Below are positions 5,748 to 21,905 of a DNA stretch of 25,432 bases, piece after piece. This stretch comes from a virus. Positions within the stretch are counted from its first letter, which is position 1. Each line of letters opens with the position of its first letter. The position numbers and the translations under genes are program-made. The notes beneath the pieces were generated by a model. It was given only the letters and a program-made list of their open reading frames with translations. It was not told where the DNA came from and did no database searches. The DNA is taken from the IMG/VR virus record IMGVR_UViG_3300017755_002896, positions 1 to 25,432 of that record; one strand, written 5' to 3'.

Positions 5748-6404
5748 ATTAAACTTTATGATGTTCCAGTGAAGTGGATCAATGTTGATACCGCTACCAA
5801 AAATGCAAAACTAATGGAAGAATTGTTCGAGCGATTGGGTATGAAAAATACTCAACGCTTTTCTGCTATAACCAATGTTCCCCCACACGAAGGTGTTCGT
5901 GAAGGAGAAGAACATTATAGAAACTGTGCGGAGTCTCACTTCCATATTCTTCAAGAGGCGATTGATACTAACAATTTCCCAATTTTAATTTTAGAAGATG
6001 ATGTTGAAATAGAAGACGGTGTTCAAGTTGACTCGGAACTAGAAATACCAGATGATGCTGATGCAATTTATTGCGGAACGTCACATGGAGATGGAAACTA
6101 CGAAGCAATTGACTATGGTAGAGGATTTAATAAAATTCAAAGAGTCTTCGCTACTCATGCCATCATGTATATGAATAAAGAAATTGCTGAAGCAGTTATT
6201 AGAACAGGGAAGTCGTGGATATATCAGAAAGATACTCCCTTTGATGTTGGATTCGCATACGAGGTCCAACCTAAATTTAATGTGTATGCTCCATACGCTC
6301 CATTTTTCTACCAAGCGGATGCGAAAAATACAGGTAATCAGTGGGAACAAATAACAAGAACTCCGCTTAACAAGAAAAAGAAATTTTCGGTATTTACACT
6401 ATGA
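5742..6404 (+). CDS. Glycosyltransferase family 25-like enzyme
   Basis: This 220-residue protein has the GT25 (LPS/lgtB-type and procollagen galactosyltransferase) layout. It opens with VKWINVDTATKNAKLMEEL (residues 10-28, the family's INLxxxxxR-type opening), continues with RFSAIT (39-44) and ESHFHILQEA (64-73, the usual SH...W region), and has the metal-binding acidic motif ILILEDDVEI (81-90). It is the first gene of the sugar block and starts 7 nt after the regA stop under a possible RegA site. GT25 includes enzymes that galactosylate bacterial surface glycans and hydroxylysine of collagen, which is notable given the collagen-like fibre downstream. The donor is probably UDP-Gal or UDP-Glc. 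The acceptor is unknown. Confidence 0.78.
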   Translation: MKIKLYDVPVKWINVDTATKNAKLMEELFERLGMKNTQRFSAITNVPPHEGVREGEEHYRNCAESHFHILQEAIDTNNFPILILEDDVEIEDGVQVDSELEIPDDADAIYCGTSHGDGNYEAIDYGRGFNKIQRVFATHAIMYMNKEIAEAVIRTGKSWIYQKDTPFDVGFAYEVQPKFNVYAPYAPFFYQADAKNTGNQWEQITRTPLNKKKKFSVFTL

Positions 6405-7207: not shown

Positions 7208-8007
7208 GAAAAAATAAGTACGGTGTTTTTTATACTTGTTACACAGAAAACAAAGCAGTAGAGTATTCTCTGCAAGAATTATTCAAAGTCTATCCAGATA
7301 TTCCTGTGTATTTGGTTTCTGATGGCGGATCCAACTTTGATTACTTAAAAGAGATGTTTCCAGACAACAATATAAATACTTTATTGGAACATGATAGTCG
7401 AGGAAAACTAAATCTAATTCAAGAACACAACTACCTAGAAGAAGATAATCTGAAGGCATCTGTAGATAGTATCACTACCTTTTTAGATAGAGTAGAGAGA
7501 GCGATTGAGTATTGTGATTGCGATTTTCTCTTAGTCTTGGAACCTGACGTATTAGTTAGAGGTGAGTTTTCCATTCCGGAAGGTGTCAAACTATTAGGAT
7601 CAAGAATAAATAATGGATTGAGTAAACAATTAGGACAGTATTTAGAAACTTTTGATAAGGGAATTCCCGTCAGTGAGTGGGGAGTAACTCCTGCTTTATT
7701 CTGTTCAAATTCTTTCTTAGAAGCATTTGACATTATCAAGAATGATGATACAATAGTACCAATGATGTGTAAGTTAGAGAGACGAGTTCCTTTCTATGAT
7801 GTATTATTTGCCGTCTTGTTTGGATTGATTGGAATTGAGGAAACAATTAATCCTGAAATAGTTGAGTGTCTCAGAAATGCAAATTGGAGATCAACTCAAC
7901 ATCCTCTTGTTCACCAGTATAGAGAATATTATCCCCTCAGCACAGAGGGGTACAACAGCACGAATGGTCAGAGAGATCATTTAATAACACAATCTAAAGG
8001 AGTTTGA
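7204..8007 (+). CDS. Putative GT-A fold glycosyltransferase, family not recognised
   Basis: From ATG 7204, which overlaps the GT11 stop as ATGA, the protein has 267 residues. The N terminus YGVFYTCYTENKAVEYSLQE (6-25) and VYLVSDGG (35-42) resemble the nucleotide-binding opening of GT-A enzymes. DFLLVLEPDVLVRG (107-120) looks like a DxD-type metal site in which the first Asp is replaced by Glu (EPD). No transmembrane segment is evident. Context between GT11 and the UDP-sugar dehydrogenase supports a sugar transferase. I cannot assign a CAZy family or substrate. Confidence 0.65.
   Translation: MRKNKYGVFYTCYTENKAVEYSLQELFKVYPDIPVYLVSDGGSNFDYLKEMFPDNNINTLLEHDSRGKLNLIQEHNYLEEDNLKASVDSITTFLDRVERAIEYCDCDFLLVLEPDVLVRGEFSIPEGVKLLGSRINNGLSKQLGQYLETFDKGIPVSEWGVTPALFCSNSFLEAFDIIKNDDTIVPMMCKLERRVPFYDVLFAVLFGLIGIEETINPEIVECLRNANWRSTQHPLVHQYREYYPLSTEGYNSTNGQRDHLITQSKGV
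7996..8002 (+). promoter_or_regulatory. Strong Shine-Dalgarno for the UDP-sugar dehydrogenase
   Basis: AAAGGAG lies 6 nt before ATG 8009. It is one of the few strong ribosome-binding sites inside the sugar block, where most starts rely on stop-start overlap. Confidence 0.7.
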
Positions 8008-8008
8008 A

Positions 8009-9280
8009 ATGAATGTTGGTTTTATGGGTTTGGGTAAGTTGGGTCTTCCTTGTGCATTAGCGATTGAGGAAAAAGGACACTATGTGTGTGGTTATGATGT
8101 TGATGATGGTGTAAAAACTATTTTGGAAAGTAAAAAACTTCCTTATCGTGAAGAGGGTGCGCCCGAAAAGTTGGAAAACCATAATATTGATTTCACAGAT
8201 ATCGATGAGATGGTGAAAAAAAGTGATATTATTTTTGTACCAATTCAAACACCACACGAAAAACAATACGAAGGAACAACTCGTCTTCCAGATGAAAGGG
8301 TAGACTTTAACTATGATTGGTTAAAGTCAGGTCTAAAGACTCTATCTGATTCAATTGATTCCAATGGTGAGGACAAAATTGTTGTTATTATTTCTACAGT
8401 TCTTCCCGGAACCGTGCGAAAGGAAATTAAACCATTCCTCAGCGACCACATTAAGTTGTGTTACAACCCGTTCTTTATTGCAATGGGAACCACTATTAAT
8501 GATTTTATCAATCCAGAATTCGTATTGCTTGGTGTCGATGATAAGGAAGCAGTAGAAACGGTCAAAGATTTTTACGCTACCATCCATGATCGTCCAGTGT
8601 ATGAATGTTCCATCGAAGAAGCAGAGATGATCAAGGTTTCATATAACACATATATCACAATGAAGATTAATCTTGCCAATGTTATTATGGAAGCGGCACA
8701 TAAACTTGATAATGTCAACTGTGACAATGTGATGAAGGGCATGTTCCTTGCTAACGAAAGACTTATTAGCACGAAGTATCTTCTTGGTGGAATGGGTGAT
8801 GGGGGCGGATGTCATCCAAGAGATAATATTGCACTGTCGTGGATGGCAAGAGAATTGGATCTTAGTCACGACTGGTATGAAAGTATGATGATTTGTCGAG
8901 AAAAACAGACAGAGTGGTTAGGGGATCTTCTTCTCGACAAGGCAAAAGAAACTGGACTCGAACCAATTATTCTTGGTAAATGTTTCAAGAAAGAAACAAA
9001 TCTCACAGTTGGTAGTCCATCAATTCTCATGAAGAACATCATCAATGAACAGGGTGTTGACGTTCTAATGTACGATCCTTGGATTGATGATTGCGATCCT
9101 CCACTTACAGAAAAAGCAGTGTTCTTTATTGGAACCAATCATGACAAGTTTACTGAATATGTTTTCCCAGAAGGATCAGTTGTAATTGATCCTTGGAGAA
9201 TGATGCCAGAGCAAAATGGAGTAGAACTTATTCGTATTGGAGACACTTCGACTTCTGTGTCAAATATTGAGGTTTCTTGA
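8009..9280 (+). CDS. UDP-glucose/GDP-mannose-type 6-dehydrogenase
   Basis: These enzymes oxidise the C6 hydroxyl of a nucleotide sugar to a uronate with two NAD+. The 423-residue protein has the N-terminal NAD motif GFMGLGKLGLP (4-14), STVLPGT (129-135) and the central dimerisation helix with catalytic Lys and Asn, EAEMIKVSYN (204-213). The active-site Cys lies in GGGCHPRD (265-272), where the usual KD is RD. The C-terminal UDP-binding-like domain contains LGKCFKKETNLTVGSPS. Spacing of K209, N213, C268 and D272 matches the Streptococcus enzyme (K204, N208, C260, D264). The substrate (UDP-Glc, UDP-HexNAc or GDP-Man) cannot be read from sequence. Its NAD+ demand may relate to the nearby NAD synthetase. 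Confidence 0.9.
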   Translation: MNVGFMGLGKLGLPCALAIEEKGHYVCGYDVDDGVKTILESKKLPYREEGAPEKLENHNIDFTDIDEMVKKSDIIFVPIQTPHEKQYEGTTRLPDERVDFNYDWLKSGLKTLSDSIDSNGEDKIVVIISTVLPGTVRKEIKPFLSDHIKLCYNPFFIAMGTTINDFINPEFVLLGVDDKEAVETVKDFYATIHDRPVYECSIEEAEMIKVSYNTYITMKINLANVIMEAAHKLDNVNCDNVMKGMFLANERLISTKYLLGGMGDGGGCHPRDNIALSWMARELDLSHDWYESMMICREKQTEWLGDLLLDKAKETGLEPIILGKCFKKETNLTVGSPSILMKNIINEQGVDVLMYDPWIDDCDPPLTEKAVFFIGTNHDKFTEYVFPEGSVVIDPWRMMPEQNGVELIRIGDTSTSVSNIEVS

Positions 9281-10053
9281 TGAATATGACAATTGATGAT
9301 GTAAAGAGTTATTGGAATAACCAACCCTGTAATGTCAAACACTCGGATAAAGAAGTTGGTACTTTTGAATATTTTGAAGAAGTTTCAGCAAAGAGATATA
9401 CTGCTGAACCTCATATTTCAGAGTTTGCCAAATTTAATGATTGTGAAGGCAAAGACGTATTGGAAATTGGTTGCGGTATAGGAACAGATGGTGTCGAATT
9501 TTTGAAGTCTGGTGCAAACTATACAGCGACAGAACTTTCAGAAAAAAGTGCGGATATCGCCAGAAAAAGATTTGATGTTTATGGTTATGATGTAGACGTT
9601 CATGTAGGCAATTCAGAAAATTTATGCGACTTTCTCCCCGAAAAGCAATATGATGTTATTTACTCGTTTGGTGTTATTCACCACACTCCAAACCCCGACA
9701 AAGTATTTTCTAAAATTAAAAAATACCTCAAGGACGATGGTGTGTTAAGAATTATGTTGTATGCAAAAGACTCTTGGAAAGGTTACATGATTGATGAAGG
9801 ATTGGACCAACCCGAAGCACAATATGGGTGTCCGATTGCAAACATGTATACGAAAGAAGAGGTAGTAAATCTTCTATCAGACTATGATGTTACTTCTATT
9901 AAACAGGATCATATTTTTACATACAAAATTGCTGAGTATAAACAAGGACTTTTTGTAAAAGAACCGTGGTTTGAAAGTATGAATGACAAAGTATTCTCTG
10001 CCATGAAAAAACATCTTGGGTGGCATCTACTTATAGAGGCAAAATTAAAGTGA
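9277..10053 (+). CDS. Class I SAM-dependent methyltransferase (Methyltransf_11/25-like)
   Basis: This 258-residue protein has motif I VLEIGCGIGTD (61-71), acidic TATELSEK (83-90) and post-motif YDVIYSFGVIHHTPNP (125-140), as in UbiE-like small-molecule methyltransferases. A FEYFEEV segment precedes the fold (30-36). ATGATG at 9277-9282 offers two adjacent starts, the first overlapping the dehydrogenase stop. It is located among sugar genes, so methylation of a nucleotide sugar or finished glycan is the likely role. It is unrelated in sequence to the FkbM enzyme at 4305, so the locus carries two different methyltransferases. Confidence 0.85.
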   Translation: MMNMTIDDVKSYWNNQPCNVKHSDKEVGTFEYFEEVSAKRYTAEPHISEFAKFNDCEGKDVLEIGCGIGTDGVEFLKSGANYTATELSEKSADIARKRFDVYGYDVDVHVGNSENLCDFLPEKQYDVIYSFGVIHHTPNPDKVFSKIKKYLKDDGVLRIMLYAKDSWKGYMIDEGLDQPEAQYGCPIANMYTKEEVVNLLSDYDVTSIKQDHIFTYKIAEYKQGLFVKEPWFESMNDKVFSAMKKHLGWHLLIEAKLK

Positions 10054-10835
10054 ATGATATTTCAAAATGGATTAAAAACTATTGTGAGCAGTACGGAATC
10101 AAGAGTTTAATCATTGGGGTATCGGGTGGAATTGACTCCGCTCTTACCTCAACACTATGTGCTTTGACAGACCTTGAAACAATTCTTCTTACCATGCCTA
10201 TTCACCAGTCACCTGATCAACATCTTCGTGGGTTGCGTCATATTGACTGGTTAAAAGATAATCACTCAAATGTTTCCCATAGAGATATTGATCTTACTTC
10301 TCTCTATGACACTTTCGTTTCTGGATTGGAAGATGATGAAAAGGATACGCTTGCTTTAGCAAACACAAGAGCAAGACTTCGCATGACTACGCTGTATCAG
10401 ATTGCACAAGTACATGGTGGTATCGTAGTTGGAACAGGAAACAAGGTAGAAGACTTTGGTGTTGGATTCTTTACCAAGTACGGAGATGGTGGAGTTGACA
10501 TTTCACCGATTGCAGATCTTACTAAAACAGAAGTTCGTGAGATGGCAAAAGAACTTGGTGTTTGTGAAGAAATTCTAGTTGCTCCACCAACTGATGGGTT
10601 GTGGGATGATGGTAGAACTGATGAAGATCAGATTGGTGCCACTTATGAGGAACTGGAATGGGCAATGGATTATTCTGACGTATCCCGACCGAAAGAATTT
10701 CTCCGTATGTTTGGAGTGAATACAGATGGATCTAATATAACAGACAGACAAAAAGAAGTTGTAGAAATTTACAACAGATTACACAATCAAAACAGACACA
10801 AAATGATTCCAATTCCAGTGTACAAGAAAGGTTAA
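10050..10835 (+). CDS. nadE: NH3-dependent NAD+ synthetase-like enzyme
   Basis: NadE amidates nicotinic-acid adenine dinucleotide to NAD+ using ATP and ammonia. From GTG 10050, which overlaps the previous stop as GTGA, the protein has 261 residues, the size of bacterial NH3-dependent NadE. Motifs: P-loop IIGVSGGIDSAL (21-32), ANTRARLRM (104-112), GTGNKVEDFGVGFFTKYGDG (128-147), VDISPIADLTKTEVRE (149-164), APPTDGLWDDGRTDEDQIG (178-196, NadE P2 loop) and the C-terminal HKMIPIP (250-256). It has no glutaminase domain. An in-frame GTG at 10020 is a less likely start. It sits between sugar methyltransferase and carbamoyltransferase genes, an unusual place for a cofactor gene. Either it replenishes NAD+ or it has been recruited to amidate a sugar acid. 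Confidence 0.88.
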   Translation: MNDISKWIKNYCEQYGIKSLIIGVSGGIDSALTSTLCALTDLETILLTMPIHQSPDQHLRGLRHIDWLKDNHSNVSHRDIDLTSLYDTFVSGLEDDEKDTLALANTRARLRMTTLYQIAQVHGGIVVGTGNKVEDFGVGFFTKYGDGGVDISPIADLTKTEVREMAKELGVCEEILVAPPTDGLWDDGRTDEDQIGATYEELEWAMDYSDVSRPKEFLRMFGVNTDGSNITDRQKEVVEIYNRLHNQNRHKMIPIPVYKKG

Positions 10836-10836
10836 T

Positions 10837-12435
10837 ATGAAAAACGTAGTCAGTATATTTGCAGGACATGACTCTAATGTGACATTCTATAATTCAAAGA
10901 CAGGTTCTTATCATGTCATTGAGTTAGAACGCTTAGTAAAAAAAAGATATTTCAGACTTCATGTTGATAATACTCCAGATGAAATAGTAGATATTCTTAC
11001 GCAGTGTCAAGAGATTGCTGAAAAGTATTGGGGTATTGAAAATGATTACTCTGCCGTGCTTATTGTTACCGATGGGTGGTTGGAACCTGAACTACTCGAA
11101 CGAGTTTTCAATACAGACCATGTTTGGAGATATGCTCAACACCATCACGCTCACGCCGCCGGTGCTTTCTATATGTCACCATTCGATGAGTCTTTAATCA
11201 TATCGTATGATGGGGGAGGAGATGACGGTCATTTCAATATTTACACAGGTGGACAAAATGGAGTTCAACTGGTTGAGAGTGTTGAGTCTGACTTTGGTGG
11301 GGGTTATCTTCTATGTGGGTCCACGATAAGAGAAATTACTGAGAAGTCAAGAAACCCGCTGGCAATAGCAGGAAAGTTAATGGGTCTTTGTGCTTATGGA
11401 TCACCCAAAGAAGAGTGGGTACAGTCTTTTTCTAATATTTTCTTTGATCGAAACTATAAGAAATTATCTGAAGAAACTAACTTAAATTTTAAAAACGCAG
11501 ATGCCCCTTGGAATAATCCATTAGACAACTGGTCATATGAAGGTGAACCTGCCTATGATATCGCTGCAACTGCACAAGAAGCATTTAAAAGATCTTTCTT
11601 TGATGTCATCGATAAGTATATGAAACAATTTCCAGATCTTCCTGTTTGTATAACAGGGGGCGCTGGTCTTAATGTTCTAGTCAACGAGGAAATGAAACGA
11701 CGATATGATAGAGAAATTTATATTCCACCGAATCCCAATGATTGTGGTTTGTCTGTTGGTAATTTGTTTCTCTATACAAGACCATCTAAGAGTGTCGATG
11801 TAACATATAACGGACTGCCACTATTAGACAGAGATAAGTTAGACGAATATGTTGTAGAACGAGAAGCAAGAAAAACGACAACAGCAGAAATAGCGTCTCT
11901 AATTAAAGATGGTAAAATTATTGGTCTCGTTTATGGAGACTCTGAAGTTGGTCCCCGTGCATTAGGAAACAGATCAATCGTGTGTGATCCATCTATACTT
12001 GACATGAAAGATATACTAAACTCTAAAGTAAAGTTTAGAGAGTGGTATAGACCATTCGCTCCTTTCTGCAAAAAAGAAGATGCTTCCACTTACTTCGACT
12101 CTCCTACTTTCGATAATCTAGAGTATATGAGTTATGCACCTCTTGTGAAGGAGGAGTATAAAGAAAAACTTCCATCTGTCACACACGTTGACGGTTCCTC
12201 CCGACTACAAACAGTGACTGAGGAATCACATAAGGGATTCTATGATCTACTTACAGAGTTCGGCAAACTATCAGACACTAATGTCCTCATAAATACATCT
12301 TTTAATATTAGAGGATATCCAATTCTCTCTACAATCGAAGATGCATTACATGTCCTAGATAATACTGAGATAGATTATGTTGTAGTCGAAGACTATATTT
12401 TTAGTAAGAATGTTTTTAGCAAAGGATTGGAATGA
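10837..12435 (+). CDS. NodU/CmcH/TobZ-family O-carbamoyltransferase
   Basis: The family transfers a carbamoyl group from carbamoyl phosphate via carbamoyl-adenylate to a hydroxyl, for example on Nod-factor sugars or tobramycin. The 532-residue protein has both domains. The N-terminal Kae1-like ASKHA domain has FAGHDSN (8-14), metal-binding HHHAHAAGAF (102-111), SYDGGGDDG (123-131) and CITGGAGLNV (271-280). The C-terminal YrdC-like part has YGDSEVGPRALGNRSI (366-381), KFREWYRPFAPF (399-410), HVDGSSRLQTV (450-460) and NTSFNIRGYPI (486-496). It is complete. It starts 1 nt after nadE and overlaps the next gene by 4 nt. It probably carbamoylates a sugar in the glycan made by this cluster. Confidence 0.94.
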   Translation: MKNVVSIFAGHDSNVTFYNSKTGSYHVIELERLVKKRYFRLHVDNTPDEIVDILTQCQEIAEKYWGIENDYSAVLIVTDGWLEPELLERVFNTDHVWRYAQHHHAHAAGAFYMSPFDESLIISYDGGGDDGHFNIYTGGQNGVQLVESVESDFGGGYLLCGSTIREITEKSRNPLAIAGKLMGLCAYGSPKEEWVQSFSNIFFDRNYKKLSEETNLNFKNADAPWNNPLDNWSYEGEPAYDIAATAQEAFKRSFFDVIDKYMKQFPDLPVCITGGAGLNVLVNEEMKRRYDREIYIPPNPNDCGLSVGNLFLYTRPSKSVDVTYNGLPLLDRDKLDEYVVEREARKTTTAEIASLIKDGKIIGLVYGDSEVGPRALGNRSIVCDPSILDMKDILNSKVKFREWYRPFAPFCKKEDASTYFDSPTFDNLEYMSYAPLVKEEYKEKLPSVTHVDGSSRLQTVTEESHKGFYDLLTEFGKLSDTNVLINTSFNIRGYPILSTIEDALHVLDNTEIDYVVVEDYIFSKNVFSKGLE

Positions 12436-13265
12436 GTGTAACCTTATATTATGTTGTCGGTGGTAACGACTGTCACTATGAAAATCTAAGACTATCTGTT
12501 AACAGTGTGAGAAAACTAACAGACACCCCGATCAAAATTTTTGATTTTTCAAACAAATGGGATCATGACTTCACGAACTTAGAAGTCGTTGATATTTCAG
12601 ACGAGATAAACTTCTCCAAAAGAAAAATTGGATATCAATTCTGGAGGCAGAAGTATGTTCGTGCGTTGGACATTGACACCGATTATGGAATGTATGTTGA
12701 TACAGATACCGTAATGGTCAATGACAACCTAGATCAACTTTGTGGGTTTATTGGGGATGAGATTGGATCCGCGAGACATTGGTGGGTTCCTAACTTTGAA
12801 CATTTTAGAGCAAAGGGTGTTCCTCCACAAAACGTCTCAAACTACGAGGCAGTTCGCAAGCACTTAAAAATCGATGACCTTGATCCGTTTTATGCCGGGG
12901 GAGTTTTCCTTTTCAGAAACAATGACACAAACACAAAGTTAATGCAGAAAGTTATTGATGTTTATGATGAGATTTATACCGAAGACTCAGAGTACATTAG
13001 TGGAATAACAGACGAAGTTTTCTTTAGTGGAGTATGTCGAGATGTTATTGATCTTGGAGGTGCTTTAAACCATTGTTGTATGGGTGATGAACACATGGAC
13101 CTTGATATCGTAAATGGTACGTTTGTTGGTAAAAATAAATACGAACCAGTTCCTAAACCTATTACATTTTTTCACTGTGATATCAGTAGGAGAGATCCGT
13201 CAGAAAATTACACCGGAGAAATGCAAGATAGAATAAGGGAACTCTACGATGGTTGCCTTTCATAA
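12432..13265 (+). CDS. GT8/GT32-like GT-A glycosyltransferase
   Basis: This 277-residue retaining-type GT-A enzyme (by resemblance) has the N terminus LYYVVGGNDCHYENLRLSVN (5-24), the metal-binding DxD in YVDTDTVMV (88-96), the acceptor-site-like FYAGGVFLF (153-161), DEVFFS (194-199) and a C-terminal FFHCD (246-250). The last corresponds to the conserved H that coordinates the metal in GT8-like enzymes. It starts at ATGA over the carbamoyltransferase stop and overlaps the next gene by 17 nt. The donor is unknown; UDP-Glc or UDP-Gal is common in the family. Confidence 0.75.
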   Translation: MSVTLYYVVGGNDCHYENLRLSVNSVRKLTDTPIKIFDFSNKWDHDFTNLEVVDISDEINFSKRKIGYQFWRQKYVRALDIDTDYGMYVDTDTVMVNDNLDQLCGFIGDEIGSARHWWVPNFEHFRAKGVPPQNVSNYEAVRKHLKIDDLDPFYAGGVFLFRNNDTNTKLMQKVIDVYDEIYTEDSEYISGITDEVFFSGVCRDVIDLGGALNHCCMGDEHMDLDIVNGTFVGKNKYEPVPKPITFFHCDISRRDPSENYTGEMQDRIRELYDGCLS

Positions 13266-14046
13266 TTTCATAGATCATTCTATAGTACAACAGGGGGATC
13301 ATTTTCCCGACCCACCGGAACTTGATGTTCTGGTGGACTGTTCTACTATTAAAGATGATGGTTTTAATAAAGAAACTACAATTGGTTGGATTGTCGAAAG
13401 TCCTGCCATATTAGAAGCATATGCACCGGGATTCCAGCGTGTGTTAAAAGAACGATTGGAAAGTGGTACATGTAATTTCAAAAAGTTGTACACATATGAT
13501 CCATCCTACAAGGGACTTCCTAATGTGTTCATGCTTGATTATTGTCCTGCGTCAACTTGGATCGAAGAAGAAAATAGAAAGATACACCCCAAATCAAAAT
13601 TGGTTTCTTTTATTTCTTCCAGTAAAACTATGACTCCAATGCAAAGAGATAGGACAGAACTACTAAGAAGATTTATACACGACAATAATGTAGATGTGTA
13701 CGGAAGAAACGTAAATCCAATAGAAAAGAAGTCTGACGCACTACGAGACTACTGCTTTTCCTTTGCCGTTGAAAATTGTTGTTCGTCTGGATACTGGACA
13801 GAAAAAATCTTAGATTGTTTTATTACAGGGACAGTTCCAATTTACATAGGGGATCCTGATATTCATAAGGTCTTTGATCTTCGGGGTGTTATAAAATTTA
13901 ACCCAAATGAAGATTTTAACTTGTCTTTTGAGAGATATTATGATATGATGCCCTATGTACAAAAGAACTACGAAACCGCAATACACATCAAGAATGAATT
14001 TAGACATCAAATTCCAATCTTGATTGAGGATTACTTACATGATTGA
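13249..14046 (+). CDS. GT10-like (alpha-1,3-fucosyltransferase-type) glycosyltransferase
   Basis: GT10 enzymes transfer fucose alpha-1,3/1,4 to GlcNAc in Lewis-type structures. The C-terminal donor-binding signature is present: YCFSFAVENCCSSGYWTEKI (168-187) followed by DCFITGTVPIYIGDP (189-203). This corresponds to the family pattern of FxxxxEN, YxTEKI and G-x-VP-x-Y-x-G. The N-terminal half (1-130) is not recognisable and is shorter than in many GT10 enzymes, so an exostosin-like GT-B relative is the alternative. The start is supported by AAGGGA at 13235-13240, 8 nt upstream, and the gene overlaps the previous one by 17 nt. The product has 265 residues. Confidence 0.74.
   Translation: MVAFHNFIDHSIVQQGDHFPDPPELDVLVDCSTIKDDGFNKETTIGWIVESPAILEAYAPGFQRVLKERLESGTCNFKKLYTYDPSYKGLPNVFMLDYCPASTWIEEENRKIHPKSKLVSFISSSKTMTPMQRDRTELLRRFIHDNNVDVYGRNVNPIEKKSDALRDYCFSFAVENCCSSGYWTEKILDCFITGTVPIYIGDPDIHKVFDLRGVIKFNPNEDFNLSFERYYDMMPYVQKNYETAIHIKNEFRHQIPILIEDYLHD
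14026..14030 (+). promoter_or_regulatory. Shine-Dalgarno selecting ATG 14039
   Basis: GAGGA, 8 nt before ATG 14039 and inside the end of the GT10-like gene, favours this start over the in-frame TTG at 14024. Confidence 0.6.
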
Positions 14047-15010
14047 TCTCCCCCTTACTTTTATAATACCATACAAAAAAGATTGCGATGATAGGCAGAG
14101 AAATCTTTCCGTTGTTGTTCGGTATCTCTTGCACAACTACAACTCGAATGTAATTGTGCTGGAAGCAGACCAAGAAAAAACAATTGATAAGATTTTACCA
14201 GAGGATGATCGTCTTACTTGTATGTTCGAGTATTTACCAGAGGGTGCAGTTTTTCATCGAACAAAATATCTAAATATGATGCTCGATCAGGTCACAACGC
14301 CACTTGTGGCAAATTATGATGTGGATGTTATGTTTGATCCGAGTACAATAGACAAAGCATGTTGTTTGATTCTAAATAATAAAGCAGACGTTGTTTATCC
14401 TTTTGGTGAACTAAAACAAGATCAACTAAGATTATTTCTTCCTTCCACGTTCGACGAAAATTATATGATTAATCGTAAGTTATACGAACATCCTCGTCTT
14501 CTTCTTGATGGCATGAGAGAATACTTTGATGGCGAACTTCCAGTTGTTGATAACCCACATGAAAATTTAAAAAATGTTCAACGTAATAAAAATGAAGATT
14601 CTTTTTTTATGTCAGAACACGATTACCAACCGAAATGTGATTTCCCAAATCATGGCATTGGTGGTTGGACAACCCTTGCGGGACACTGTATAATTTTTAG
14701 AACAAAAACTTATTTCGATGGATTCATGGAAAACGAAGAGTTTATAGGATGGGGACCAGAAGACGCAGAGCGACTAAAAAGATTCCGTATGCTTGGGTAC
14801 AATGTCGTACACCTCGAAGGGAACCTCGTATTTCATTTAGAACATAGAAATCCTCTAGTATCAACAGAATTTAATCCGAACGCCAATAAAAATGAATTGC
14901 TGTGGCGAAATACATTTGATCCATGTAACACACAAGAAGAATATGAAAAAATATACTCGTCATATGATTACTACAACAAGTATAGTCACAAAGAAAAGGA
15001 ACTAGCGTGA
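14039..15010 (+). CDS. GT2-like glycosyltransferase with galactosyltransferase-type C-terminal motif
   Basis: This 323-residue GT-A enzyme resembles the capsule/GT2_2 group (Pfam Glyco_tranf_2_2 and Glyco_transf_7C, from memory). It opens LTFIIPYKKD (6-15) and RQRNLSVVVRYLL (19-31), has the DxD in ANYDVDVMFD (91-100), and carries FIGWGPEDAERLKR (235-248), the GWGxED motif that contacts acceptor and donor in beta-1,4-galactosyl- and GalNAc-transferases, then FHLEHR (265-270). It overlaps the previous gene by 8 nt and the next by 4 (GTGA). A beta-linked Gal, GalNAc or GlcA transfer would be typical of the family. The exact sugar is not determined. Confidence 0.8.
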   Translation: MIDLPLTFIIPYKKDCDDRQRNLSVVVRYLLHNYNSNVIVLEADQEKTIDKILPEDDRLTCMFEYLPEGAVFHRTKYLNMMLDQVTTPLVANYDVDVMFDPSTIDKACCLILNNKADVVYPFGELKQDQLRLFLPSTFDENYMINRKLYEHPRLLLDGMREYFDGELPVVDNPHENLKNVQRNKNEDSFFMSEHDYQPKCDFPNHGIGGWTTLAGHCIIFRTKTYFDGFMENEEFIGWGPEDAERLKRFRMLGYNVVHLEGNLVFHLEHRNPLVSTEFNPNANKNELLWRNTFDPCNTQEEYEKIYSSYDYYNKYSHKEKELA

Positions 15011-15957
15011 AAAAGAAAATAGCAATAATTGGACCGGGCATCATGCCCATCCCACCGGACGGGTGGGGAGCAGTTGAAATATTAGTCTGGAGACACAAGT
15101 GTTCTTTAGAGAAGTTAGGTCATGAAGTTACCATATACAACACAAAAGATCTACACGCTGTTGCAAATCATATCAATGCATCTGATTATGATTTTGTACA
15201 CAACCAGTATGATGAGTTTGCAGGGTTCCTATCACAAGCATTACAAGTTCCTTTCTGTACGACCACACACTTTGGTTATATCATGAGAGAACATCTCTGG
15301 GGTCATGGGTATGCTCATAGCGTTTTCCCACAAACTCTAATGAGTCCATCCATTCTTGCACTTTCTGAAGGTATCAAAGACATGTATCTTTCCAAAGGAT
15401 ATACTGGTAAAATTGATTACTTAAGAAATGGGGCAGAGGTTGGTGAATTTAAGTTCAAGGAAAACGGTAACGGTAAGGCAGTTGTTGTTGGTAAGATTGA
15501 AGACAGGAAACGACAAAGAGATATTGCGGTTGCTTGTGGTGGGAAAGCAAATGTTGATTTTGTTGGTCCATCAATTGATCCACAATACAAAGACACAGAA
15601 ACATGCAAGCACATTGGTCACTGGTCTAAACCCGAGTTATATGAAAATCTTTCAGACTATTCAACACTTGTTCTTTTCAGCGATGGCGAAGCAGCACCTC
15701 TTGTAGTTCCCGAGGCACTTGCAGCAGGATTGAGTGTTGTTGTGAGTGAGTGTGCTTCTGCTAATATTGATAGAGAACTTCCTTTTGTTACTGTTGTTCC
15801 TGATGATGTTATTCAAGAGAATCTTCCCGATGTGATTAATGAGTCTTGCGAAAACAATCATCAATACAGAAAAGACATTAGGAAGTTAGCAGAAGATCAT
15901 TACGATTGGGATGTGATCATGGAAGAGTATGTTGAGAAGATTGGAGTAACGATATGA
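15007..15957 (+). CDS. GT4-family (GT-B fold) glycosyltransferase
   Basis: The start is GTG 15007, overlapping the previous stop (GTGA). The 316-residue protein opens with the GT4 pattern KIAIIGPGIMPIPPDGWGAV (4-23). Its second Rossmann domain begins near AVVVGKIEDRKRQRD (158-172), and it contains the donor-binding EX7E motif in SDGEAAPLVVPEALAAG (225-241; E228 and E236). No membrane anchor is seen. GT4 enzymes are retaining transferases using UDP-, GDP- or ADP-sugars. The length is slightly short for the family, with an abbreviated N-terminal domain. Substrate unknown. Confidence 0.85.
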   Translation: MKKKIAIIGPGIMPIPPDGWGAVEILVWRHKCSLEKLGHEVTIYNTKDLHAVANHINASDYDFVHNQYDEFAGFLSQALQVPFCTTTHFGYIMREHLWGHGYAHSVFPQTLMSPSILALSEGIKDMYLSKGYTGKIDYLRNGAEVGEFKFKENGNGKAVVVGKIEDRKRQRDIAVACGGKANVDFVGPSIDPQYKDTETCKHIGHWSKPELYENLSDYSTLVLFSDGEAAPLVVPEALAAGLSVVVSECASANIDRELPFVTVVPDDVIQENLPDVINESCENNHQYRKDIRKLAEDHYDWDVIMEEYVEKIGVTI

Positions 15958-16637
15958 TTGGTTGGTTAGTAATTGGCACTGCTAAGTATTTTGAACTTGG
16001 CGTAAACTGTCTTCAAAGTATTAAAGATAATTACAAAGGTGAACACGAATCACAATATTTTCTTTTCACTGATAGGGCACATGAACTATCAGATGAACTG
16101 GATTGGATCACTACGATTGATATCAATCATATTCCTTTCCCTTATATTTCAATGGCAAGATATGCTCACTTTATAGACAGACAGCATCTTTTCTCTGATT
16201 GTGATTATTTGTACTACAGAGATGCCGATAGTTTGTTTGTTGATGTCGGTGATGAGATTCTGAGCAAGAGGACAACCGTTCTCCATCCAAGTTACTACAT
16301 GAACGAACCCGACACGCACCCATATGATAGAAATCCAAATTGCAACGCATATATTCCTTTTGGTAGTGGTAAGCAGTATTACCAAAACTGTTTTCAGGGT
16401 GGAGAAAAAGAAGAATTTTTAAAGATGTCATTACTCCTCCGTGATAGGACACAAGAAGATCTTTCAAATAATATCATTCCTCTCTGGCACGACGAAAGTC
16501 ACATGAATAAATACATGAGTGACAACCCCCCGACCCTTGTGTTGGATTCCGGTTATGCATTCCCAGAAGGATGGGATCTTCCTTTTGAACAAAAGATCCT
16601 TAGTACAGACAAAAATAATATTGAAATTAGGAAATAA
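15954..16637 (+). CDS. GT6-family (ABO histo-blood-group type) alpha-1,3-Gal/GalNAc transferase
   Basis: GT6 enzymes add alpha-1,3-Gal or GalNAc to galactose, usually of an H (Fuc-alpha-1,2-Gal) acceptor. The 227-residue soluble protein has metal-binding YYRDADSLF (87-95), VLHPSYY (109-115), PYDRNPNCNAYIP (123-135, like human GTA PFERRPQSQAYIP), YYQNCFQGG (142-150) and WHDESHMNKY (178-187). The last differs from human GTA WHDESHLNKY at one residue and includes the catalytic Glu. Positions equivalent to ABO specificity residues 266 and 268 are Gln144 and Cys146. It keeps the vertebrate-type DxD, whereas many bacterial GT6 have NxN. It lacks the vertebrate membrane anchor and stem. It overlaps the GT4 stop (ATGA). 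Confidence 0.93.
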   Translation: MIGWLVIGTAKYFELGVNCLQSIKDNYKGEHESQYFLFTDRAHELSDELDWITTIDINHIPFPYISMARYAHFIDRQHLFSDCDYLYYRDADSLFVDVGDEILSKRTTVLHPSYYMNEPDTHPYDRNPNCNAYIPFGSGKQYYQNCFQGGEKEEFLKMSLLLRDRTQEDLSNNIIPLWHDESHMNKYMSDNPPTLVLDSGYAFPEGWDLPFEQKILSTDKNNIEIRK

Positions 16638-16638
16638 A

Positions 16639-18012
16639 ATGAGTAGACCAACTGTTACTTTGTGTATGATTGTGAAGGATGAAGAACATATCATCCATGA
16701 ATGTCTTGATTCGATGATACCTTATATTGATCGATACGACATCACCGACACCGGATCCACCGATAGAACTAAAGAAATAATTCGTGAATGGGGTAAGAAG
16801 AACAACATTCCCGGTGAAGTATATGATGCACCTTGGCAGGGTTTCGGTAAGTCAAGATCTGTTTCTCTTCGTAATGCGGACAAGGGCGGTGCAGATTACT
16901 CTTGGGTTATTGATGCTGATGATCAAGTCATGGGTAAGTTTGTCTATCCCCAAGAATTCGGAGATCATGCTGCGTATACATTGAAAATTAACAGAGGAGA
17001 TTTTGAGTGGTGGAGAAATCAAATCTTCAAGAACAATATGGGATGGGAGTATGTTGGAGTTATTCATGAATATGCAAACTGTCCAGATTTAGAGAAAAGC
17101 GGTTTACCTGTTGCTAGACTTCAGGGAAATTATGCCATTGATGCTCGAACGCTAGGAAATCGAACCAAAGAATTTGATGTTGAATTGGAAGAAGGACAAG
17201 AGGAAGAACCCGGAAAGGAAGCATGGAGAAAGAAATATCTTCATGATGCCGAAACTCTCTTAGACTGCCTAACAAATCCCGATAACGAAAACTACGAACC
17301 AGACAACCACCGTTATCTTTTTTACCTAGCACAATCATACTTTGATGGTGGAGATTTTACTAAAGCGAAAGAGTGGTATGAGAAACGAGCAGAAAAAGGT
17401 GGCTGGGAAGAAGAACAATGGTACTCTGTTCTTCGTGTTGCTATGTGCATGACAAACCTTGGTGAAAAATGGCAGGACACACAAGATGTATTTCTTCAGT
17501 CGTATAACATACGACCAACGCGAGTAGAGTCTTTGTTTAATCTTGCAAGAATTCATCGATTAAATGGTAATCCTAAACTTGGATATCTCTTCGCTAAGAT
17601 GGGATGTCAAATACCACTTCCTCCCAATGATGTTCTTTTTGTTGCAAAAGACATCTATGATTGGCAAATCTGGGACGAGTTAGCGTCAACTGCTTGGTAT
17701 ACTGGTGACATGCAGGCGGGTCTTGCTGCATCGAACAAACTTCTTACGGATAAACTGTACCCAGAAGAACATCATGAAAGAATTTTAAACAACTGGAAAC
17801 AGTACGTTGCTTGGCAGGAACAGCAAGAAAAAGAACAAAAAGCAGCACAGGCAGAGCAAATGAAGCAAAATATCCTCAAGGAAGAATTGGATCGTCAAGA
17901 AACTCTCAAAAGAAAAGAAAATTCAAAAAATCGGGAACAACAAAAGAAGATAAATAAGAGGAGACAGAAGCAAAAATTAGCGAGTAAGTCTCGTAAAGCA
18001 TCGAGGAGATGA
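16639..18012 (+). CDS. GT2-family glycosyltransferase with TPR region and basic coiled-coil tail
   Basis: The start at 16639 (AGGAAA at 16629-16634) gives 457 residues; an upstream in-frame ATG at 16519 lies inside the GT6 gene. The catalytic domain is GT2: TLCMIVKDEEHIIHECL (7-23), DTGSTDRT (37-44), FGKSRS (69-74) and WVIDADD (89-95). The TPR-like helical repeats run roughly 222-320 (HRYLFYLAQSYFDGGDFTKA, then ESLFNLARIHRLNGNPKLGY). The last 65 residues are Gln/Glu/Lys-rich and end strongly basic (NKRRQKQK...SRKASRR). Such GT2-TPR proteins are common next to tail-fibre genes in large marine phages. The TPR and tail suggest protein-protein contact, possibly with a protein acceptor. It ends 3 nt before the structural genes. 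Confidence 0.85.
   Translation: MSRPTVTLCMIVKDEEHIIHECLDSMIPYIDRYDITDTGSTDRTKEIIREWGKKNNIPGEVYDAPWQGFGKSRSVSLRNADKGGADYSWVIDADDQVMGKFVYPQEFGDHAAYTLKINRGDFEWWRNQIFKNNMGWEYVGVIHEYANCPDLEKSGLPVARLQGNYAIDARTLGNRTKEFDVELEEGQEEEPGKEAWRKKYLHDAETLLDCLTNPDNENYEPDNHRYLFYLAQSYFDGGDFTKAKEWYEKRAEKGGWEEEQWYSVLRVAMCMTNLGEKWQDTQDVFLQSYNIRPTRVESLFNLARIHRLNGNPKLGYLFAKMGCQIPLPPNDVLFVAKDIYDWQIWDELASTAWYTGDMQAGLAASNKLLTDKLYPEEHHERILNNWKQYVAWQEQQEKEQKAAQAEQMKQNILKEELDRQETLKRKENSKNREQQKKINKRRQKQKLASKSRKASRR
18004..18008 (+). promoter_or_regulatory. Shine-Dalgarno at the sugar/structural gene boundary
   Basis: AGGAG lies 7 nt before ATG 18016 and within the last codons of the GT2-TPR gene. It gives the structural genes an independent, strong ribosome entry point. 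Confidence 0.7.
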
Positions 18013-18015
18013 TAT

Positions 18016-18450
18016 ATGGCATCCGGTAGATATGATATAACTGCGGAACAAGGAGTTACTTTTAAACTTCACCTTCGCTATAAAGACCACCAAAATGTAA
18101 ATGTAGATCTTGATCCAGATCTTGGTTGGACAGGAAGAATGCAAGTTAGAAGATCGGGTGTAGACTCTGATTTAATTTTACATGTAACAACAACAGGAGT
18201 AACTGGTGGAGGATCTACTGGTGAATTTACTGCTGGATCAGGGGTGACCGGAAACGGTGGCATAACAATGAATGCATCTGCAACAGGTGGAACGGGTCAT
18301 AGTGGCGGAGTCCTTATTGGCATTGACGCAGAAAGTATGTCTAATGTTCCAAAGGGAAACCACTTTTATGATCTTGAAATCGTAAAAGGTGATACTGTTA
18401 CACGATTGATCGAAGGAAGATTTTCAGTAGACAGAGAAATCACTAGATGA
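18016..18450 (+). CDS. Small baseplate/tail-fibre-associated protein (BppU-N-like), hypothetical
   Basis: This 144-residue protein begins ASGRYDITAEQGVTFKLHLR (2-21), a pattern seen at the N terminus of phage tail and baseplate proteins with a beta-sandwich (my comparison is to BppU-like N-terminal domains). A Gly/Thr/Ser-rich middle (TTGVTGGGSTGEFTAGSGVT, 59-78) suggests an extended segment, and the C terminus (FYDLEIVKGDTVTRLIEGRF) is beta-like. It has a strong Shine-Dalgarno and overlaps the fibre gene by 4 nt, so it is probably made together with the fibre, perhaps as its adaptor. The exact role is not established. Confidence 0.7.
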   Translation: MASGRYDITAEQGVTFKLHLRYKDHQNVNVDLDPDLGWTGRMQVRRSGVDSDLILHVTTTGVTGGGSTGEFTAGSGVTGNGGITMNASATGGTGHSGGVLIGIDAESMSNVPKGNHFYDLEIVKGDTVTRLIEGRFSVDREITR

Positions 18451-21400
18451 CTAATAAAATAACAATTTCCAGAGATGATCTACCAAAAAAGGTAGAAGTA
18501 ACTGCAATACCGAACAATATTACAGTTACGGATTCAAGTGCCAAGACTAATATTGTTGAGGTTGCTCAGGGAATTGTTGCAGGAGGTGGTGAGGGTCCAG
18601 CAGGACCACAAGGAGATCCCGGAACCGATGGAACCGATGGAACCACTGGAACAACAGGCAATACTGGTGCAACTGGTGCAACTGGTGCAACTGGTAAAAC
18701 TGGTGCTGATGGAACTACAGGAACCACCGGTAACACCGGTAACACTGGAACCAGCATAACGTCAGCGACTCTTTCCCCCGCAGTAAATGGCGGTCAAACT
18801 TTAGCATTTATACTCGAAACTGTTAATGGAGTTACAACAGGAATAACCGCTGGGTTTATTCTTTCTGGTGGTGGTACTGGTGCAACTGGTGCAACGGGAC
18901 TCCCTGTTGGGGTTCGATATCAGGTAACTACCACCACCGGCGAGGTTTCAACTAGCGGAGATCCCGGTAAGGTATTCTTTAAAGATGACCTTTCACTCGT
19001 AAAAATTACTAGTAGGGATATTGACAACAGTGATACCTCCATCATCACAAACCTTAATCAAAATTCTTTCTTCATTTTCACCAATGATGACTATAGTAAA
19101 GAAAGAATATTTAGAACTAATATAAATGCATTTCAAAGTCCCGGTGGTTCCCAAAGCGTATTCTCGTATACCAATATTACATACGTCAAACAAGCAGGAG
19201 GTGTTTTTGCTGATGATGAATTTGTGACTGTTATGCGGTTTACCGCCGGAGGCACGGGTGGAGATGGTGATGGTATTACTAATCCAAGACTCATTGGCGA
19301 TAATCTTGTCATTGATCAATTCATAACCCAAAGTGGTGTCACGGGTGCATCTTATGATCTAGGATCCGTAGTGGGTTCGGCGGGTTCAACCGGAAAGACT
19401 GGTGCTGGTGTAACTGGTGCAAGTCTAACTTCTGTTGTAAATGGCGGACAGACTTTAACATTCGTAGTTGAAACTATGGATGGATTTACCATAGGATTAA
19501 CTGCTGGCACTATACCACAAGGTGGCGGCACTGGTGCGACTGGTGCGACCGGAGCAACGGGTATTGCAGGAGTCACTGCTGGATTGAAATTCTATCCAAA
19601 TGCTGGTGGTTCTACCGTTGGAATTGATCCTACCGCAGTAATTCATATTGCTGGTATATCGTCAGACGGCGGTGCTACTTTTGGTGGTAATGTTAGAATA
19701 CTATCAGACAAAAATATTATTCTTAACTCCACTGCCAGCATCAGAAATCCAGATTCAGTTCCCATGATAGTGGATCTTAAACCCGGCGGGGAAACGGGAC
19801 AAGTCGCAATCGGTGATGTTAATGACGCAGGCAATGGTGTGCAAATCGTACTCAATGATGGTGAGAATAATATACAACTAATTTCTGATGACATTCAGAT
19901 ACTAAAACAATTATCACACAACACTGATCCTGACACAAAAATAACATTCCAGACAAACGAAGTCGGAATGTCCGCAGGTGGAGCAAACAATATTAGATTG
20001 AGTTCCACGGTCACACAGATAGGAACTCCCCTTCATGCTGTAGAGGGTGTATCTGCTGATAAAGGAATTACTTTCCCCGACTACACACACCAGACTACTG
20101 CTTTCACTGGAGCAACTGCGTATAAAGCAGGCGATGGAATAACACTCGATGTTGCAGGTGGAACTTTCTCAATTGATCCCACTGGTATTTTTGTTGAAAA
20201 GGTTTTTGATTTTGACGGCAACAATGATACAGGGATGGACATCAGTGTTGATAATACTATTTCTTTCTTGGCGGGCGGTTCCAATAGATTAGATATCACT
20301 AATCTAGACACTGTTTTTAATAGTGGAATCACTATCAGCGGAGGTGTTGGTATCGATGGAGATATTCTTTTCGCTGGTGCTGATTCTAATAGGATTAAGG
20401 TCAACGATACCACCGCACTCTTATTAGATCCAGAGAATGGTCTTGTTCGAGTCCTTACTTTCGGTCTACAAATACCCGACAGACTACAACACACAGACGA
20501 CACCGATACTTTCCTTGGGTTTAAGACAAATGCAATTAATCTTAGTGCCGGTGGAGTTGTAGGAGTTACATTAGATGCATCTAGCATGTCAATCGGTGTA
20601 GGTACTTCTATTACTGGTGGAATGACTTTGGATGGTGTACTTAATCTACCCACCGGAGATTCAGACAACCCAGCGACCAGTATCAAGATTCCCACTGGCG
20701 GAAAAATTGTTAACCACCAGACAGACCCAGCATCGGTGTCACTTGCGACTAACACAGTTACACTGCAATCAAAAGGAACTGGATCTCCGGGCAGAGTGAC
20801 GGTAGACAACAACAAGGTATTCATAGACAATGTTGTTCTGAAAACAGAGGAAGGTATCTCTATGGATGATGCTGGACTCACCTTCCCACTAGGTACGCAT
20901 CAAATCGCTGCTGCGTATGGTGTTGGTGGCGGCGGCATTGGTTTCCACAGTTACTTTGATGGTGGAACTGGTACTACTCAGGTGGTCCAAGGTAGCAATA
21001 CCAAACCCGGCAGATTTAAGTTTTCTTTCGGTGGTAACGGGAACGACAACGGGAGAGGTCAAACGGCAGCGACCGGTGATGCCCCCGGTTGGGCGAATGC
21101 GACCGCCGAACCATCGACCTATCCGTACTATTTCCATGTGAACGAATTCGCTGCTTCTCCTGTTGTGGGCGAAGAAGGTATCGGAAATCACATACCCAAA
21201 CTCATGAATCTTTTGTATGGTGCTAGTGGTGCCACTGTACAAATTGGAGCAGGTCAGGGTGGAACTCATCTAGTTTCAATCGTTAAAATAACTCAACAGC
21301 AACCTGCTCATGTACACACAGGGTTCGCTAACTCGGATAAACCCCTTCCACATGAAGCATGGTTCGGTGTTAAATCAGGTGCTGGTGATTTCTCTGGGGA

Positions 21401-21905
21401 TCTTGGGCAGGGTCCAAACCACACTGTACCCATCGTGCGAATCGATGAATCTGGTCCGGGAGTAAGAAGTAACTTCGATGGTAGATCTGGTGGTACTGGT
21501 GGTATCCAAGATGGTGACTTGTTCTACATTGATATCTTCCCAATCTTTGGTGGTGGCGACGGTGGCGGTGGTGGTCTGTCTGAAGTTGTCGGTTCATATG
21601 ATGGACACATTGAATTCCCAAACAATGACACATATCACTTAGACTCAAGATTAATAAGAACCAGAACAATTAGTGAATTCTTTGCTAAGGTTGAACAAGG
21701 TGTGACCGGCGCAACTGCCGAATTGCATGGAGGTGGGACTTTAATTGCTGGTATTTCTCTTGGTGTAACGGGACACATAGCAGATAGTCTAAATGAACCA
21801 GAAATAAATCAAGGCGGAACATTGGAAATTAGAGTGAGCGGCGTAACCACCGGTTATCTGCATAAAGACTTTACATTCTCTGTTGGTTATGTACAGGGAG
21901 AATAA
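18447..21905 (+). CDS. Large tail fibre with collagen-like Gly-X-Thr repeats
   Basis: This 1152-residue protein is almost free of Cys and rich in Gly, Thr and Asp. Layout: short N-terminal domain (1-49); an 18-triplet collagen-like G-X-Y run (50-103), mostly with Thr at Y; two copies of a 45-residue NGGQT beta module that end in short GAT triplets (108-151 and 326-372); a shaft of repeated H-x-T-D-x-D-T / SAGG modules (487-781); two TFPxxTHQ motifs (542-549 and 812-819); a Gly-rich hinge (1035-1043); and a separate C-terminal beta domain (1044-1152). It is presumably the trimeric host-recognition fibre. It starts at ATGA over the adaptor gene and follows the sugar block without a break. The Thr residues are potential glycosylation sites. 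Confidence 0.88.
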   Translation: MTNKITISRDDLPKKVEVTAIPNNITVTDSSAKTNIVEVAQGIVAGGGEGPAGPQGDPGTDGTDGTTGTTGNTGATGATGATGKTGADGTTGTTGNTGNTGTSITSATLSPAVNGGQTLAFILETVNGVTTGITAGFILSGGGTGATGATGLPVGVRYQVTTTTGEVSTSGDPGKVFFKDDLSLVKITSRDIDNSDTSIITNLNQNSFFIFTNDDYSKERIFRTNINAFQSPGGSQSVFSYTNITYVKQAGGVFADDEFVTVMRFTAGGTGGDGDGITNPRLIGDNLVIDQFITQSGVTGASYDLGSVVGSAGSTGKTGAGVTGASLTSVVNGGQTLTFVVETMDGFTIGLTAGTIPQGGGTGATGATGATGIAGVTAGLKFYPNAGGSTVGIDPTAVIHIAGISSDGGATFGGNVRILSDKNIILNSTASIRNPDSVPMIVDLKPGGETGQVAIGDVNDAGNGVQIVLNDGENNIQLISDDIQILKQLSHNTDPDTKITFQTNEVGMSAGGANNIRLSSTVTQIGTPLHAVEGVSADKGITFPDYTHQTTAFTGATAYKAGDGITLDVAGGTFSIDPTGIFVEKVFDFDGNNDTGMDISVDNTISFLAGGSNRLDITNLDTVFNSGITISGGVGIDGDILFAGADSNRIKVNDTTALLLDPENGLVRVLTFGLQIPDRLQHTDDTDTFLGFKTNAINLSAGGVVGVTLDASSMSIGVGTSITGGMTLDGVLNLPTGDSDNPATSIKIPTGGKIVNHQTDPASVSLATNTVTLQSKGTGSPGRVTVDNNKVFIDNVVLKTEEGISMDDAGLTFPLGTHQIAAAYGVGGGGIGFHSYFDGGTGTTQVVQGSNTKPGRFKFSFGGNGNDNGRGQTAATGDAPGWANATAEPSTYPYYFHVNEFAASPVVGEEGIGNHIPKLMNLLYGASGATVQIGAGQGGTHLVSIVKITQQQPAHVHTGFANSDKPLPHEAWFGVKSGAGDFSGDLGQGPNHTVPIVRIDESGPGVRSNFDGRSGGTGGIQDGDLFYIDIFPIFGGGDGGGGGLSEVVGSYDGHIEFPNNDTYHLDSRLIRTRTISEFFAKVEQGVTGATAELHGGGTLIAGISLGVTGHIADSLNEPEINQGGTLEIRVSGVTTGYLHKDFTFSVGYVQGE
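18594..18755 (+). repeat. Collagen-like Gly-X-Y repeat with imperfect 9-bp DNA repeats
   Basis: Eighteen consecutive Gly-X-Y triplets occupy fibre residues 50-103. About two thirds have Thr at Y, and only the first few contain Pro. At DNA level a 9-bp unit (ACTGGTGCA) is tandemly repeated three times at 18663-18689, with degenerate copies either side, so length change by slippage is plausible. Confidence 0.9.
18768..18899 (+). repeat. NGGQT module, copy 1
   Basis: Fibre residues 108-151 contain NGGQTLAFILETVNG followed by GITAGFILSGGGTGATGATG. The same module recurs at 19422-19562, so this is an internal duplication within the fibre. Confidence 0.8.
19422..19562 (+). repeat. NGGQT module, copy 2
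   Basis: Fibre residues 326-372 contain NGGQTLTFVVETMDG then LTAGTIPQGGGTGATGATG, clearly homologous to copy 1 and again flanked on both sides by Gly-X-Thr/Gly triplets (GSTGKTGAGVTG before it). Confidence 0.8.
19905..20789 (+). repeat. Degenerate fibre-shaft repeats (about 95 residues, four copies)
   Basis: A motif with H, TD, DT, a hydrophobic F/I, TN and SAGG recurs at fibre residues 487 (LSHNTDPDTKITFQTNEVGM), 584 (more divergent, FDGNNDTGMDISVDN), 678 (LQHTDDTDTFLGFKTNAINL) and about 755 (NHQTDPASVSLATNTVTL). The spacing is roughly 97, 94 and 77 residues. These look like repeated beta-structured shaft segments, as seen in marine T4-like phage fibres. Confidence 0.7.
21895..21900 (+). 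promoter_or_regulatory. Shine-Dalgarno for the LamG-like gene
   Basis: AGGGAG lies 7 nt before ATG 21908 and inside the last codons of the fibre gene. Confidence 0.65.

Follow-up and report, generated by a model that had tools for sequence, protein, structure and literature searches.

The window analysed here, which is the complete 25,432-base IMG/VR virus record IMGVR_UViG_3300017755_002896, carries a cassette of sugar genes that ends close to the gene of a collagen-like fibre. The interval between regA and the dUTPase gene contains 13 mostly sugar-related genes (5742-18012), followed by genes encoding a 144-aa protein, the collagen-like fibre and a LamG-like protein (Table 1). The last sugar gene encodes a GT2 glycosyltransferase with tetratricopeptide repeat (TPR) helices, hereafter GT2-TPR, which we propose to be the enzyme that links the first sugar onto the fibre. 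The first-pass annotation had delimited a possible self-glycosylation system at 16639-21905; the GT2-TPR gene begins, with its ATG, exactly at the first of these positions, and the stop codon of the fibre gene lies at the second. However, it also described the sugar block as running unbroken into the fibre gene, which is incorrect: the gene of the 144-aa protein (18016-18450, phrog_1084) intervenes. These genes are tightly packed, with 1 bp between GT6 and GT2-TPR, 3 bp between GT2-TPR and the 144-aa gene, and an overlap of 4 bp between the latter and the fibre gene.

The GT2 domain of the enzyme is recognised by PF00535 (38.9 bits for a cut-off of 23.3), and the individual TPR matches to Pfam are all under their cut-off. 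An AlphaFold2 model built on a 24-sequence alignment (mean predicted local distance difference test score, pLDDT, of 89.4) displays a GT-A domain, TPR-like helix pairs at residues 195-371 and a long basic C-terminal helix. This agrees with the earlier description of a GT2 with a TPR region and a basic tail. The DxD metal motif (D92-A93-D94) is invariant across the homologues, which begin at the same Met and also conserve the basic tail. Among known structures, SunS and ThuS occupy the top ranks in Foldseek, with matches that extend along most of the chain and cover both the glycosyltransferase and the TPR parts (E about 1e-14), and VIA-align gives them Z scores of 20-21.5 (for SunS, 21.5 over 269 residues at 3.0 Å). 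The wall-polymer enzymes TarS and RmlT rank lower. SunS and ThuS, as the titles of their PDB entries indicate, glycosylate polypeptides. The best sequence relative in the PDB is GmaR (3.8e-16), an enzyme that glycosylates flagellin (PMC9638930); its glycosyltransferase part is absent from the fold lists, which is uninformative either way. By homology with GmaR and by fold with SunS and ThuS, the enzyme is therefore a protein-type glycosyltransferase, as expected for the protein acceptor that had been suggested for it, and the GT2-TPR gene product is probably a protein O-glycosyltransferase.

The collagen segment of the fibre matches PF01391 with 29.4 bits (cut-off 27.2). Thr occupies the Y position in 16 of the 25 Gly-X-Y triplets, hence in most of them, as had been noticed in the first-pass annotation. 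This frequency exceeds both the one expected from the fibre's own Thr content (P = 1.7e-9) and the general background of bacterial collagens (P = 9e-4), in which Thr is found on average at 31.6% of Y positions (PMC8968730). The collagen portion is short, since it consists of a main run of 19 triplets and a few shorter runs, and the fibre is mostly non-collagen. The main Gly-X-Thr (GXT) segment holds one Lys.

Association of the enzyme family with collagen genes

We surveyed 80 bacterial loci encoding relatives of the enzyme, a collagen-like open reading frame (ORF) being defined by at least 8 triplets. Such an ORF is located within 8 kb of the enzyme gene in 49 of these loci and within 1 kb in 43, and in 41 loci Thr fills 30% or more of the Y positions of the nearby collagen. 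The loci that associate enzyme and collagen include some from Streptomyces, Streptococcus, Acinetobacter, Psychrobacter, Bacillus and Clostridium. As a control, Pfam collagen matches were counted in 30 of the genomes that hold these loci, each match being considered as a separate locus. Enzyme loci close to a collagen amounted to 20/30, versus at most 1.5/30 by chance. The corresponding P value (about 1e-22) is uncorrected for relatedness and is only nominal, since related genomes are not independent. The link of the enzyme family with collagen is a very large effect, far above chance, and spans several phyla.

The same link is found in phages. In T4-like relatives of the window, the enzyme is encoded by the last sugar gene, which usually abuts virion genes; it stays put beside them while the sugar genes upstream differ. 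In 23 relatives, the enzyme gene lies within 4 kb of one for a collagen in which Thr takes up 29-93% of the Y positions, and among 18 large records, the enzyme is found in 17 and a collagen in 16. For instance, a minimal cassette (L030) consists of regA, GT25, GT10 and GT2-TPR, followed by a GXT collagen whose 36 triplets have Thr at 89% of the Y positions. Two other phages (L227 and L260), which were retrieved by a GXT pattern in DNA and not by the enzyme, encode an enzyme (303 and 430 bits, respectively) that adjoins a GXT collagen. The co-occurrence of GXT fibres with such glycosyltransferases, put forward in the first-pass annotation as a check, is found in phage relatives, and that of GXT collagens in bacterial loci, but not as a strict pairing (see below). 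Furthermore, Tunturi 5, a cultured jumbo phage of Acidobacteriota, encodes a 33%-identical homologue, gp35 (L361, 8004-9107), that is listed only as a glycosyltransferase (PMC11924767), and its tail fibre gp29, located about 4 kb from gp35, includes a collagen run of 28 triplets. This pairing in a cultured phage makes glycosylation of the fibre amenable to testing.

Two loci (L088 and L145) appeared to encode a GXT collagen without the enzyme. This was an effect of flank length, since in the whole records the enzyme gene adjoins that of the collagen. Whole records explained some, but not all, of the loci that seemed to encode the enzyme and no collagen. Collagens of a second kind, with charged triplets (KGD, ERG), are encoded in L350 (15896-17671), L352 (16544-18205) and L143 (5820-7004); charge, rather than Thr, perhaps stabilises them.

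Sugar genes and their genomic context

Comparison with 11 other complete cassettes located between regA and the enzyme gene (GT2-TPR being present in all of them by construction) revealed a layout with a fixed end and a variable middle. The six variable genes at 7192-13265 of the window (Table 1) are found in none of these 11 cassettes. None of the 334 ORFs of the cassettes encodes a protein with three or more hydrophobic, transmembrane-like segments, and none resembles a membrane flippase, polymerase or ligase. This fits a stepwise cytoplasmic glycosylation of proteins rather than a full O-antigen assembly locus.

Table 1. Coordinates, strand and supporting evidence of the features of the sugar cassette and of the adjacent virion genes
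Feature	Position	Strand	Evidence
GT25-like glycosyltransferase, conserved left end of cassette	5742..6404	+	PF01755 24.2 bits vs 24.0; fold; 9/11 complete cassettes
GT11 fucosyltransferase-like, cassette core	6401..7207	+	PF01531 99.6 bits; 8/11 cassettes
Variable sugar genes: unknown (7192), nucleotide-sugar dehydrogenase (8009), methyltransferase (9277), NadE (10020), NodU-like carbamoyltransferase (10837), unknown (12432)	7192..13265	+	
GT10 fucosyltransferase-like, cassette core	13249..14046	+	PF00852 38.1 bits; 7/11 cassettes
GT7-like galactosyltransferase, GWGPED motif, variable part	14024..15010	+	PF02709 19.8 bits, below cut-off
GT4-type glycosyltransferase, variable part	15007..15957	+	PF00534 29.1 bits
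GT6 glycosyltransferase, ABO transferase family, variable part	15954..16637	+	PF03414 99.7 bits
GT2-TPR protein glycosyltransferase, 457 aa, GT-A + TPR helices + basic tail	16639..18012	+	Pfam, model, fold and sequence matches
144-aa protein, phrog_1084; possible fibre adaptor or alternative acceptor	18016..18450	+	phrog_1084 match
Fibre, 1152 aa, collagen segment at residues 47-103 and short GXT runs; proposed acceptor	18447..21905	+	PF01391; Y-Thr count
GXT collagen segment, Pfam-matched part	18585..18749	+	PF01391, residues 47-101
LamG-like virion protein, 468 aa	21908..23314	+	PF13385 weak; phrog_8510 virion structural protein

The first sugar gene had been described as similar to GT25, a family that includes collagen galactosyltransferases. 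The Pfam match barely passes, and the model of the GT25-like family (pLDDT 87.3) has mimivirus R655 and human COLGALT1 as best folds, bacterial beta-1,4-galactosyltransferases coming after them. Collagen galactosyltransferases target hydroxylysine and not Thr. The family resemblance stands, but the GT25-like enzyme is therefore more likely to extend a glycan chain. R655 itself is presented without an activity test in PMC9546862.

Among the variable genes, GT6 is related to the ABO transferases, as its profile matches GT6/ABO structures (1e-52 to 1e-42) and its DxD motif is aligned in all four phage homologues. The GWGPED motif of the GT7-like protein is conserved in three phages, and a profile search against the PDB gave no match for this protein; its identity therefore rests on a sub-threshold Pfam match and on a motif judged by eye. 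The set composed of GT11, GT7-like, GT6 and GT2-TPR recurs in two other phages (L006 and L012), one of which (L012) has a GalE-like gene near it. The left end of the window (1-498) also encodes the C-terminal part of a GalE-like protein that, with GT6, GT7-like, GT10 and GT11, resembles a blood-group or Lewis-type pathway. Within the sugar block, 10020-12435 encodes an NAD synthase (NadE) and a NodU-like carbamoyltransferase. In another phage (L033), NadE (55%) adjoins the nucleotide-sugar dehydrogenase (67%), so that these two genes may travel as a pair.

The cassette is preceded by the T4-type replication genes encoding RNase H, gp45, gp44, gp62 and regA, with an FkbM-type methyltransferase gene (4305-4937) inserted between the clamp-loader genes gp44 and gp62. 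The right side of the window encodes a dUTPase, a DUF1599 protein and gp43. Among sequenced phages, the closest gp43 genes are those of T4-like phages of Synechococcus, with 51% identity, and the window therefore belongs to a lineage without a close cultured member. Among sequenced phage isolates, ten distant relatives of the GT2-TPR enzyme were found, and no close relative was found for either the fibre or the 144-aa protein. In seven relatives (L097, L100, L105, L110, L116, L119 and L140), the genes encoding GT2-TPR, phrog_1084 and dUTPase are consecutive, with no fibre gene between them. Another record (L002, IMGVR_UViG_3300020438_003221) is 99-100% identical to the window across their common genes and corresponds to the same virus, assembled again. 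The T4-type late promoter TATAAATA was found, with at most one mismatch, at 43 sites for 39 expected; since these numbers are similar, they say nothing about the timing of expression.

Proposed mechanism and rival explanations

We consider it fairly probable that the locus is a phage-encoded O-glycosylation system for the fibre of the virion itself, as had been suggested from the sequence. The protein-type glycosyltransferase, the link of its family with collagen and the analogy with SgtA (see below) support this proposal, whereas the strict link between GXT segments and glycosyltransferases that went with it is not supported. The adjoining fibre is, on balance, likely to be the main acceptor of the enzyme, and it is plausible that the entire cassette builds one glycan on this fibre. 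We infer the sugar donor, the acceptor sites, the glycan structure and the benefit for the phage as follows. In the cytoplasm of the host, the TPR domain of GT2-TPR would hold the fibre chain, and the enzyme would add the first sugar, most likely N-acetylglucosamine (GlcNAc), to Thr (or Ser) of the GXT segment. The soluble enzymes encoded upstream would then extend this sugar stepwise, with the GT25-, GT11- and GT10-type enzymes as a core and, here, GT6, GT7-like, GT4 and modifying enzymes as a variable extension set. The completed fibre would be assembled into the virion. During evolution, the acceptor end would be retained and the glycan-making genes would be swapped between phages. The whole array may thus decorate the fibre, variation or shielding being the putative result. 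A bolder and rather improbable version is that the collagen fibres of a family of T4-like phages bear a coat of blood-group-like glycans, the cassette being swapped and the starter enzyme kept, which would amount to antigenic variation of the virion. The glycan would then comprise GlcNAc linked to Thr by GT2-TPR, galactose added by the GT7-like or GT25-like enzyme, fucose added by GT11 and GT10, and a terminal alpha-galactose or N-acetylgalactosamine added by GT6.

Several observations weigh against fibre glycosylation. Bacterial collagens usually have Thr at Y and are for the most part not glycosylated (PMC8968730), which makes the GXT segment weak evidence when taken alone. In L077, L138, L143 and L149, the enzyme gene directly precedes genes encoding charged collagens with 0-2% Thr at Y; in L119, L140 and L116, the sole collagen found is charged and lies 12-13 kb off; and in L024, L026 and L028, fibres without collagen are encoded beside the enzyme. 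Conversely, strong matches to the enzyme are present in just 3 of 120 GXT phage loci, and matches of any strength in 18, on fragments that average 8.8 kb. Moreover, adjacency of the genes in phages may reflect linkage only. Since the pairing with GXT is not strict, the enzyme may accept Ser or Thr elsewhere in virion proteins or in the 144-aa protein.

One alternative is therefore that the acceptor is not specifically the GXT segment but another Ser/Thr-rich part of the virion, such as the phrog_1084 protein or the non-collagen parts of the fibre. The enzyme is indeed retained in phages without Thr-collagen, in many of which phrog_1084 is its immediate neighbour. The phrog_1084 protein has a conserved Gly/Thr-rich loop, and its divergence follows that of GT2-TPR beyond the phage background (partial r 0.56-0.76), although close linkage could also explain this. 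We nevertheless regard this alternative as unlikely: no phrog_1084 gene was found next to that of the enzyme in L023, L024, L026, L028, L077, L102, L138 and L143, and the bacterial homologues adjoin collagen genes. The block could also alter the O-chains of the host lipopolysaccharide against superinfection, the fibre and sugar genes simply sharing a host-recognition island. Such a change of the host surface is the published interpretation of the glycosyltransferases found near tail fibres in related pelagimyophages (PMC7029224), and it would be consistent with a cassette that is hypervariable like O-antigen loci and with the weaker fold matches to TarS and RmlT. However, the fixed gene is of a protein-acceptor family, and the host-surface explanation does not account for a collagen link that recurs in bacteria and in other phages. 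The lack of flippase-, polymerase- and ligase-like proteins in the cassettes also argues against it, even though the host could supply these functions, so that this explanation appears to us to be of low probability.

Two other explanations are far less credible. The location of the block among replication genes, near those of the dUTPase and the DUF1599 protein, would suit glycosyltransferases that decorate modified bases of the phage DNA, and some phages are known to have enzymes that assemble glycans on DNA (a reference cited in PMC12619734). This is very improbable, since the fixed enzyme belongs to a type with protein acceptors; in addition, no member of the thymidylate synthase/dCMP hydroxymethylase family was found in the incomplete records of ten large relatives, the window itself being a fragment. 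Finally, the genes could be neighbours by chance, the GXT composition serving only the stability of the collagen and the sugar genes being unrelated cargo. Thr at Y is common without glycosylation (PMC8968730), and the majority of GXT phage collagens have no enzyme nearby. A chance association is nonetheless hardly compatible with a link between family and collagen that is far above chance in several phyla.

If the fibre is glycosylated as we propose, the usual view that phage glycosyltransferases encoded beside tail fibres alter the host surface would have an alternative: phages would decorate, with sugars that can be exchanged, the fibres by which they contact the receptor. In this group of phages, the virion fibres may then carry a self-made coat of changeable sugars. 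It could also reveal a general rule, according to which a GT2-TPR gene beside a collagen-like gene would denote a glycosylated collagen, including many uncharacterised bacterial surface proteins.

Comparison with known glycosylation systems

A literature search on the glycosylation of phage collagens returned no paper describing it. The components are of known kinds, and it is the combination of a glycosyltransferase for a phage collagen fibre with an exchangeable cassette that appears to be new. SgtA from Clostridioides difficile, likened here to the phage enzyme by its published domain layout and gene order, has the same GT-A and TPR architecture. It is composed of a GT-A domain and four TPRs, its gene is immediately upstream of bclA3, and it transfers in vitro beta-O-GlcNAc onto Thr of the collagen-like (GPT) peptides of BclA3 (PMC7157674). 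As in the phage, the enzyme gene precedes a collagen-like gene with Thr-rich triplets. However, the acceptor of SgtA is a spore protein and not a virion protein, and this system explains the first sugar only; the phage system has an extra exchangeable cassette and an enzyme with a longer basic tail. GmaR and SunS/ThuS also have a GT2 domain, TPR-like helices and a polypeptide acceptor. They differ from the phage enzyme in that GmaR acts on flagellin and carries an additional antirepressor part, and in that SunS and ThuS attach S-linked sugars to small bacteriocin peptides.

Glycans on virion proteins are known in mycobacteriophages, where they are reported to act as a shield (PMC12619734). In the account given there, the modified proteins are those of the capsid and the tail tube and not a collagen fibre, and no exchangeable multi-gene cassette tied to an acceptor gene is described. 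In chlorovirus PBCV-1 and mimivirus, virus-coded enzymes glycosylate the major capsid protein in the cytoplasm; mimivirus moreover has collagens and glycosyltransferases that modify them (PMC9614988, PMC9546862), and its R655 is the closest to the model of the phage GT25-like enzyme. These are however viruses of eukaryotes, with N-glycans (PBCV-1) or hydroxylysine-linked sugars (L230/R699 from mimivirus). Lastly, the host recognition cluster of pelagimyophages is, like the locus described here, a variable island of T4-like marine phages that combines glycosyltransferases with collagen-bearing structural genes (PMC7029224). This cluster lies between VrlC and gp14 and has been interpreted as modifying the O-chains of the host (PMC7029224), whereas the island of the window lies between regA and gp43 and would act on the fibre of the phage itself.

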